Shown here piece after piece: positions 1,583 to 3,032 of a stretch of DNA of 35,021 nucleotides. Position 1 is the stretch's first letter; the number at the start of each line of letters is the position of its first letter. The notes below the pieces were generated by a model. It was not told the origin of the DNA. It worked only from the letters and a program-made list of their open reading frames with translations, and ran no database searches. Source of the stretch: Candidatus Cloacimonadota bacterium. GTDB lineage: Bacteria > Cloacimonadota > Cloacimonadia > Cloacimonadales > TCS61. The DNA lies in contig JAIPGO010000037.1 of the NCBI GenBank assembly GCA_021736135.1, positions 1 to 35,021 of the forward strand, in the 5' to 3' direction. The position numbers and the translations under genes were made by a program.

Positions 1583-2175
1583 GGAGTACATTAAGAATTC
1601 TTAATGTACTCCAAAAGTATAACTGACTGGAGATTAGATGAGGTAAACGATTTTGATTTTTGCAGTTTAGGGAAAGTTATATGATTGATGCAGACAGTAG
1701 AAGCGAAAGTATTGAATTTATCTGGAGTACATTAAGAATTCTTAATGTACTCCAAAAGTATAACTGACTGGAGATTAGATGAGGAAAACGATTTTGATTT
1801 TTGCAGTTTAGGGAAAGTTAAATGATTGATGCAGACAGTACAAGCGAAAGTATTGAATTTATCTGGAGTACATTAAGAATTCTTAATGTACTCCAAAAGT
1901 ATAACTGACTGGAGATTAGATGAGGTAAACGATTTTGATTTTTGCAGTTTAGGGAAAGTTATATGTTGATGCAGACAGTAGAAGCGAAAGTATTGAATTT
2001 ATCTGGAGTACATTAAGAATTCTTAATGTACTCCAAAAGTATAACTGACTGGAGATTAGATGAGGAAAACGATTTTGATTTTTGCAGTTTAGGGAAAGTT
2101 ATATGATTGATGCAGACAGTAGAAGCGAAAGTATTGAATTTATCTGGAGTACATTAAGAATTCTTAATGTACTCC
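1583..2175. repeat. Array of five perfect 30-nt palindromes with 141-bp period (REP-like)
   Basis: Five identical self-complementary 30-nt elements lie at 1583-1612, 1724-1753, 1865-1894, 2005-2034 and 2146-2175. Each has the arm GGAGTACATTAAG, the centre AATT and the reverse-complement arm, so a single strand can form a 13-bp stem with a 4-nt loop. The roughly 111-bp spacers are near-identical, differing by a few substitutions (GAGGTAAACG alternates with GAGGAAAACG) and one 1-bp deletion, so the whole is a tandem repeat with a 140-141-bp period. The near-identical spacers rule out CRISPR. The array abuts a RAYT transposase gene, which makes a REP/BIME interpretation natural. The last palindrome overlaps the 5' leader of that gene. 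Confidence 0.93.
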
Positions 2176-2199
2176 AAAATAATCCAAAAGGGGGTAACA

Positions 2200-2736
2200 A
2201 TGGAACAGTTCAAAAAATACCAGCACAATCCACCACATTTATTTAAACAGAACTGCAAATACTTCGTTACCGGGGCAACTTTTATGAGACAACCTTATTT
2301 TAATGATGATGTGACGAAGGAGAAGTTATTATATTGCTTGCAAAAAGGATTTACTGATGCGGGATGGCAACTTGAAGACTGGGTAATTTTGCCTAATCAT
2401 TATCACCTGATGGCAGATACATTGGATAGTACTGTGAAAATAACTCTTATTATAAAGAAAATACATCAATTCAGCAGTATCTGGCTGAATAAAAGAGATA
2501 ATATGCACGGTAGAAAAGTTTGGTTTAATTACTGGGACAGCTGTATTACTTTTGAGAGTTCATATTTTGCACGCTTAAATTATATCTGGCAAAATCCGGT
2601 TAAGCATGGATGCTGTTTGAATGCTGAGGATTATAAATTTAGCAGTTTTAATGAACGATATGTGACTGATAGGGATTTGGTGGACGGGATTAGAGAGAAG
2701 TATCCTTGTGACCTGGTGCAGGTTGTGGAAGTGTAA
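2200..2736 (+). CDS. REP-associated tyrosine transposase (RAYT, Y1_Tnp/HUH family)
   Basis: A single-strand DNA endonuclease/transposase of the IS200-like HUH superfamily, expected to nick and rejoin REP-type hairpins. The ATG at 2200 follows an AAAAGGGGG site. An in-frame ATG at 2167 lies inside the preceding palindrome and is a less likely start. Visible motifs in the 178-residue protein are the metal-binding HUH triad H67-Y68-H69 in WVILPNHYHLM and a candidate nucleophile Y128 in YIWQNPVKHG, which matches the family pattern YI..NPV+.G. Length fits RAYTs. Identical palindromes lie on both sides (2146-2175 and 2743-2772, then 2909-2938), the layout of a RAYT with its own REP set. No frameshift or stop is seen, so it may be active. 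Domesticated rather than self-mobile behaviour is inferred from other RAYTs. Confidence 0.9.
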   Translation: MEQFKKYQHNPPHLFKQNCKYFVTGATFMRQPYFNDDVTKEKLLYCLQKGFTDAGWQLEDWVILPNHYHLMADTLDSTVKITLIIKKIHQFSSIWLNKRDNMHGRKVWFNYWDSCITFESSYFARLNYIWQNPVKHGCCLNAEDYKFSSFNERYVTDRDLVDGIREKYPCDLVQVVEV

Positions 2737-2742
2737 TTATTT

Positions 2743-2772
2743 GGAGTACATTAAGAATTCTTAATGTACTCC
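2743..2772. repeat. Sixth copy of the 30-nt palindrome, just after the RAYT
   Basis: Identical to the array upstream of the RAYT and starting 6 bases after its stop codon. It closes the RAYT between two palindromes and could also act as a transcript-end hairpin, though no U-run follows. Confidence 0.93.
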
Positions 2773-2908
2773 CAGACTTTAACTGACTGGAGTTTGGAAA
2801 TGGCAGAGGATGATGATTTTGAACTGTTTGATGGAAAGATATTATAATGATACGGATTCGGGTTAGTTGCTCTGGGACCTGGTGCTGGTTGTGGAAGTGT
2901 AATTATTT
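2773..2908. repeat. Diverged array unit containing a duplicated RAYT 3' end
   Basis: The first part (about 2781-2800) resembles the spacer of the upstream array (TAACTGACTGGAGTTTGG versus TAACTGACTGGAGATTAG), then diverges. The last part (about 2876-2908) repeats the last codons and stop of the RAYT with one mismatch (GACCTGGTGCTGGTTGTGG versus GACCTGGTGCAGGTTGTGG), running straight into palindrome 7. It is a non-coding remnant, not a second gene. Confidence 0.75.
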
Positions 2909-2938
2909 GGAGTACATTAAGAATTCTTAATGTACTCC
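2909..2938. repeat. Seventh copy of the 30-nt palindrome, 7 bases from the tRNA-Leu 3' end
   Basis: A perfect copy of the palindrome. It sits directly downstream of the minus-strand tRNA cluster, so its hairpin could help define the 3' end of the tRNA transcript. That role is inferred from position only. Confidence 0.93.
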
Positions 2939-2945
2939 AAATTTA

Positions 2946-3032
2946 TGGTACCAGAGGCCGGACTTGAACCGGCACGAGCTTGCACCCGAGGGATTTTAAG
3001 TCCCTTGTGTCTACCAATTCCACCACTCCGGC
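2946..3032 (-). tRNA. tRNA-Leu (anticodon UAA)
   Basis: Read on the minus strand the gene begins GCCGGAGTGGTGGAATTGG and ends with an encoded CCA. It has an 87-nt class II form with a long variable arm (CTCGGGTGCAAGCTCGT), a T-arm GTTCAAG and an anticodon loop CTTAAAA, giving UAA. The acceptor stem pairs fully with two G-U wobbles. It is last in a Gly-Cys-Leu cluster. Confidence 0.96.

Follow-up and report, generated by a model that had tools for sequence, protein, structure and literature searches.

A RAYT clade with GGAGT-tagged REP elements and a fully symmetric REP in Candidatus Cloacimonadota

The REPs associated with RAYT transposases carry, as published, a GT[AG]G tag, and two minor groups have CnGA or atypical structures. 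The REPs of E. coli bear GTAG and are imperfect hairpins with a required bulge. On the REPs assayed, the E. coli transposase TnpAREP acts on the single-stranded REP only, the inverse sequence is inert, and the enzyme cuts the dinucleotide CT either 5' or 3' of the hairpin; A3 and G4 of GTAG have been proposed to choose this CT (PMC8266576). Residues Q95, E100, H101 and R104 of the E. coli protein lie in the region contacting GTAG (PMC6006769, PMC8266576). TnpAY1 subclass 2.4 has a 'double foot' REP, in which one hairpin is tagged on both sides (GT[AG]G/C[TC]AC) in a REPtron arrangement, with a protein containing the motifs WQ and YIxNNP (PMC6006769). Quentin et al. 2018 (PMC6006769) proposed that a double foot originates when an inverted pair of REPs loses its central part. 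Subclass 2.8 has been reported from Cyanobacteria only, with canonical GT[AG]G REPs (PMC6006769). Tags other than GTAG are found in the CnGA elements, which accompany class 3 proteins (Y----Q; Quentin et al. 2018, PMC6006769), and in the CGTC-tagged, REP-like hairpins, which do not lie beside transposase genes (Di Nocera et al. 2013, PMC3733652). No GGAGT-tagged REP was found in the REP/RAYT papers searched.

The window analysed here is a stretch of 35,021 nucleotides from a Candidatus Cloacimonadota bacterium. Between a pyruvate kinase gene (pyk, 121-1572) and a tRNA-Leu/Cys/Gly cluster, it carries a RAYT gene surrounded by seven exact copies of GGAGTACATTAAGAATTCTTAATGTACTCC, a perfect 30-bp palindrome that has no occurrence in 100 dinucleotide shuffles. 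The earlier note had described seven perfect palindromes around one intact RAYT, and all were located, five upstream and two downstream. The upstream copies, like the others without strand assignment, lie at 1583-1612 (11 bp beyond the stop codon of the pyruvate kinase gene), 1724-1753, 1865-1894, 2005-2034 and 2146-2175, the RAYT start codon following the last of them 24 nt further downstream. The downstream copies lie at 2743-2772 and 2909-2938, the latter 8 bp before the tRNA-Leu gene (2946-3032, minus strand). Each copy is composed of a GGAGT foot, a 20-nt hairpin core ACATTAAGAATTCTTAATGT and an ACTCC foot, with 15 of 15 positions paired, so that the palindrome is hairpin-forming and adjoins its tag. 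The foot of every copy is GGAG(T), and the count of TGTAG in the flanks of the RAYT gene is zero. The element thus resembles the double foot of subclass 2.4, with GGAGT/ACTCC in place of GT[AG]G/C[TC]AC, and differs from the GTAG-tagged, bulged REPs of E. coli in being fully symmetric.

The upstream palindromes are spaced at 141, 141, 140 and 141 bp and form a tandem array (1583-2145, plus strand) of four 140-141-bp units, each a palindrome with a 110-111-bp spacer, the units being 98-99% identical. The downstream spacer (2773-2908, plus strand) has three parts, namely a spacer homologue, unrelated sequence and a copy of the RAYT 3' end. Its first ~84 nt are homologous to the upstream spacer at ~72% identity (57/79 columns), and at its end, positions 2873-2905 reproduce the final 33 bp of the RAYT gene at 94% identity. 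The earlier description of spacers that vary slightly therefore applies to the upstream array and does not extend to the downstream spacer. The identity of the palindromes had also been taken as a sign of activity or selection. Within the upstream array it is uninformative by itself, as the array's spacers hardly differ either; the comparison across the gene is the informative one, since upstream and downstream palindromes agree at 30/30 positions although their spacers have diverged to ~72%, an outcome with a chance of about 6e-5 at the divergence rate of the spacer. A palindrome unchanged beside a diverged spacer agrees with selection acting on the palindrome or with its concerted evolution. 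Neither the 141-bp array nor the copied RAYT 3' end is unusual for a REPtron. Nunvar et al. 2010 (PMC2817692) reported a rayt 3' terminus built into a BIME, and the copying of the RAYT 3' end is thus a known REPtron habit.

The RAYT/TnpAREP gene (2200-2736, plus strand) has an open frame of 178 aa from ATG at 2200 to TAA at 2736. Its product contains the HUH motif NHYH (66-69), the guide-region motif WFNYWD (108-113) and the catalytic-tyrosine motif YIWQNPVKH (Y128), which has the class-2 form Y---NP rather than Y---Q. The protein scores 37.6 bits against Pfam Y1_Tnp (cut-off 23) and 88.3 bits against NCBIfam NF047646 REP_Tyr_transpos (cut-off 80), which it passes, and 22.2 bits against the IS200 transposase model, far under the cut-off of 55. 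The sole meaningful match in a PDB sequence search was 4er8, the E. coli TnpAREP. Foldseek with the AlphaFold model matched IS200 transposases and 4er8; this model is of low confidence (pLDDT 56), as it was built from four sequences only, and was used for the fold alone. Like the E. coli REPtron, the locus has a Y1/HUH fold, a REP-flanked single-copy gene and the motif Y---NPVKHG. Where the subclass 2.4 protein carries WQ and YIxNNP, this protein carries WF/NYWD and YIWQNP. Eight further Y1_Tnp matches exist in the source genome, all only distantly related to the window RAYT. We read the window protein as a single-copy, domesticated Y1/HUH transposase of the RAYT/TnpAREP family.

Genome-wide counts were obtained by pattern searches in the window's own assembly (4.14 Mb). 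Outside the window, no exact copy of the 30-mer was found in the rest of the assembly, and the sole variant, with 3 mismatches, lies on another contig (G000:C87:12828-12857), directly after a typA/bipA-like gene and followed by CAGAC, as is window copy 6. This solo copy keeps all 15 stem pairs despite the changes G13C/C18G and C7T, with the G13-C18 pair turned into C-G by a compensatory swap and C7-G24 into T-G, a G-T wobble. The loose pattern TGGAGTN{10,40}ACTCC gave mostly chance matches in this genome besides the window and the solo copy. The window REP has not proliferated in its own genome, where it counts seven local copies and one divergent copy, and its arm sequence is private to the window's lineage. 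Counting the 30-mer, as had been proposed as a test of its link to the RAYT, would therefore have failed as such a test. A sequence that is not dispersed in its own genome is no basis for that link, which is carried instead by the conserved foot described below.

The near absence of spread, with one divergent solo copy, is a point against reading the locus as an active REPtron. Together with the near-identity of the tandem upstream units, it speaks for a dead remnant, that is, a minisatellite produced by slippage or unequal recombination, made symmetric by quasi-palindrome correction and no longer acted upon by the RAYT. We regard this as improbable, because the RAYT frame is open with every catalytic motif present, the palindrome is unchanged between units whose spacers have diverged, and the solo copy has retained its pairing through a compensatory change. 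A mobile insertion sequence of the IS200/IS605 or 'TIRYT' type, transposing as a whole unit with perfectly palindromic ends, is less credible still. Similar sequences do stand on both sides of a Y1 transposase here, and TIR-bounded RAYT-like genes, some with self-complementary TIRs, have been described (Di Nocera et al. 2013), but the unit has one genomic copy and no close relative among the eight further Y1 genes, the protein falls below the IS200 cut-off and has the class 2 tyrosine motif, and the seven repeats stand in arrays instead of forming two ends.

The orthologue search covered 196 genomes and then further genome contigs. The orthologues, 33-54% identical to the window RAYT, came from the source organism's own family, order and class, from a single distant family and from Candidatus Stahlbacteria MAGs. 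A plasmid collection contained distant RAYTs only, the cyanobacterial and Chloroflexota examples examined falling outside the clade and being without GGAGT, and a phage search for the window RAYT gave no match. A RAYT tree, which the earlier note had suggested, was built by maximum likelihood from 54 Y1 proteins, and the 20 clade members tested form one monophyletic branch (UFBoot 100, SH-aLRT 98). The clade signature is HNPPHL / NHYH / [NQ]YWD / YIxxNPVKH. In the clade alignment H67, H69 and Y128 are invariant, and the invariant or nearly invariant positions comprise H9, P11, H13, N66/H67/H69, Y111-W112-D113, Y128, N132 and H136. By motif description, the clade consensus resembles TnpAY1 subclass 2.8 (Quentin et al. 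2018) in NHYH, W[YH], YIHYNP, the proline-rich N-terminus and length; the clade has W[YHF], YIxYNP and an HNPPHL N-terminus, the window protein itself has WF and YIWQNP, and the clade's REPs bear GGAGT where those of subclass 2.8 are reported to be canonical.

The flanks of the orthologues contain repeats on both sides of the gene that start with (T)GGAGT and end with ACTCC(A), with unrelated hairpin arms between. Such GGAGT...ACTCC elements with differing arms surround the gene in nearly all orthologues having both flanks assembled. The layout in most orthologues is GGAGT-hairpin-linker-hairpin-ACTCC, a REPIN with two hairpins, and the single-hairpin form occurs in the window and in one relative (G158). 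The window element, with its single hairpin, lacks the two inverted hairpins per element of a REPIN. Enrichment was tested by comparing the count of GGAGT at most 450 bp from the gene with Markov-resampled flanks, at p<0.01. GGAGT was enriched at 19/22 clade loci vs 0/52 other Y1 loci (Fisher 7e-15), the 52 including Y1 genes from the clade members' own genomes; this test was run on the very clade that had revealed the motif, and the out-of-sample loci are the four further clade members from a wider later search, two of which pass and two of which fail for exact GGAGT. At the failing loci, L028 ends at a contig border, L020 and L021 have the feet GGAGT/GGATT and GGAGT/GGAAT, respectively, and the later members L119 and L126 have GGAAT/GGAGT and the variant feet GGAAG/GGACG. 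Near-identical feet are thus present in at least 3 of the 5 clade loci failing the enrichment. Of the GGAGT feet, 58% lead directly into a stem of 6 bp or more, compared with 5.8% of positions drawn at random from those flanks. The proposal that this RAYT has cognate palindromes, with GGAG(T) at the stem base as the tag, is borne out, and the foot is conserved across the clade while the remainder of the palindrome is not.

Three clade or clade-like loci show further forms of the element. At L126 (G307:C111), with a clade-like RAYT, repeats of GGAAGCCTCAACTTGTTGAGG lie upstream and repeats of CCCCAACAAGTTGGGGCGTCC downstream, and this variant tag may show how tags drift. At L030 (G114:C347), a clade member, the GGAGTGC...GCACTCC elements are ~115 bp with nested stems, compared with the usual ~50 bp. 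At L029 (G119:C49), also a clade member, an identical 22-bp palindrome, GTCTCCCGATAAATCGGGAGAC, stands on both sides of the gene.

A high dispersed copy number, absent from the source genome, is found in the relatives G021 and G022, with tens of copies. In G021, which has a clade RAYT, 23 two-hairpin copies are listed on both strands, and the commonest dispersed REPIN type matches the element beside its RAYT. For G022, the listed GGAGT REPINs number at least 20, and no clade RAYT was found in this genome at 96% completeness. These REPINs may be orphan REPs left by the loss of the RAYT, or the gene may fall in an assembly gap; the decay of REPs following RAYT loss has been described (PMC3686654). 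Across 19 genomes with a clade RAYT, the pattern TTGGAGTN{14,44}ACTCCA occurs 128 times vs 24 for the reversed control, and across 71 other relatives, mostly of the same order and class, 206 times vs 95 (Mann-Whitney p=2e-4). The excess is real, and elements also occur in some genomes in which no clade RAYT was detected. A second fully symmetric GGAGT double-foot element, TTGGAGTGCATCCCGAAGCTTCGGGATGCACTCCA, was observed at G125:C33:2329-2363; no clade RAYT was found in this genome, which is 59% complete.

The least probable reading makes the palindromes double-stranded operators, or attenuator or terminator hairpins, for the RAYT, pyk or tRNA genes, with the RAYT incidental: a dimeric regulator would be well served by a perfect 30-bp palindrome and copy 5 is close to the RAYT start codon, but the feet stay while the arms change completely among orthologues, relatives carry such elements dispersed away from RAYT genes, and no T-run follows the hairpins. 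A secondary regulatory effect of the palindromes on the RAYT mRNA is possible. Transcription terminators, operators and insertion-sequence ends were all considered for the palindromes and dropped.

The guide positions were aligned through a phmmer alignment to 4er8 and the clade alignment. Like the E. coli TnpAREP, the clade keeps W94 and W99; it differs at Q95, which becomes Y/F/H, at E100, which becomes D, at H101, which becomes mostly S/T/K/R, and at R104, which becomes T/R. The RAYTs observed here with GTAG hairpins keep WQ....[DE]H..R, namely L007, L134 (GTAG 14 vs 2.8 expected) and L081 of E. coli. In the aligned sequences, the change in guide residues appears to track the change in tag, as a correlation over few cases. 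L007 (G000:C147:26230-29508) is a canonical GTAG REPtron inside the source genome itself. Its RAYT has the guide motif WQSENYDHLIR and is surrounded by five TCCTG[TC]AGCACAGACGTCCCCGTCTGTG hairpins, with GTAG directly 5' of CACAGACGTCCCCGTCTGTG.

The source genome contains other Y1 loci with repeats. At L010 (G000:C106), a GTAG-tagged double-foot palindrome, TGTAGATTCCATAGCAATGGAATCTACA, lies at positions 2317-2344 near another Y1 gene. L006 (G000:C5:32368-35712) and L005 (G000:C123:6213-9545) are two Y1 genes whose motif, Y---Q--HH, resembles that of subclass 1.2, and both of their flanks hold long arrays of ~53-54-bp hairpin units (for example TTCTACAAATAGATAATCCCTACGGGATAA; CCGCGTAGCGGATATTTATTTGTAGAA) or ~200-bp repeats at 96% identity. 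No REPs have been reported for TnpAY1 subclass 1.2, and these arrays are possibly the REP-like elements of a class believed to be REP-free.

From these comparisons, we consider it highly probable that the locus is a REPtron of a clade whose REPs have a GGAGT 5' foot replacing GT[AG]G, and that the window element represents two inverted REPs collapsed into one. The ancestral element of the clade was most likely a REPIN of the form GGAGT-hairpin-linker-hairpin-ACTCC. The lineage of the window would then have seen both inverted REPs collapse into one hairpin footed on both sides, giving the fully symmetric 30-mer. The central-deletion origin put forward for double feet is supported for the window element, since most orthologues have two hairpins. 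The hairpin would extrude on single-stranded DNA, either the lagging-strand template or transcribed DNA, and the window RAYT would bind the stem and read GGAG as the guide tetranucleotide. The guide bases A3-G4, common to GTAG and GGAG, would then select the CT dinucleotide, for which there are two kinds of candidate site, one within the opposite foot (A-CT-CC) and one immediately preceding copies 2-5 (ATCT before GGAGT). Cleavage at CT by Y128 and strand transfer would copy or rejoin the units locally. Because the window element equals its own reverse complement, either strand is a predicted substrate. A bolder reading, in which the GGAGT clade forms a REP/RAYT lineage apart, with a guide specificity of its own, and the window enzyme no longer discriminates between strands and processes either, seems to us doubtful. 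If true, a self-inverse REP with both strands processed would be a natural test of the purpose of REP strand specificity.

The suggestion of an undescribed REP/RAYT type stands for the GGAGT tag, which is unreported in the papers searched, and gives way in part for full symmetry, as GT[AG]G 'double foot' REPs are known (PMC6006769). The anatomy is that of an ordinary REPtron, its GGAGT tag is undescribed and defines a clade of RAYTs, and the window's REP is an extreme form in its full symmetry. A single base (T2 to G) separates the two tags, and the positions aligned to the E. coli guide contacts change alongside. The presence of a GGAGT-clade RAYT and a canonical GTAG RAYT in one genome offers a clean natural comparison of how the guide tetranucleotide is read, and the perfectly symmetric element tests the finding that TnpAREP acts on the REP and not on its inverse.
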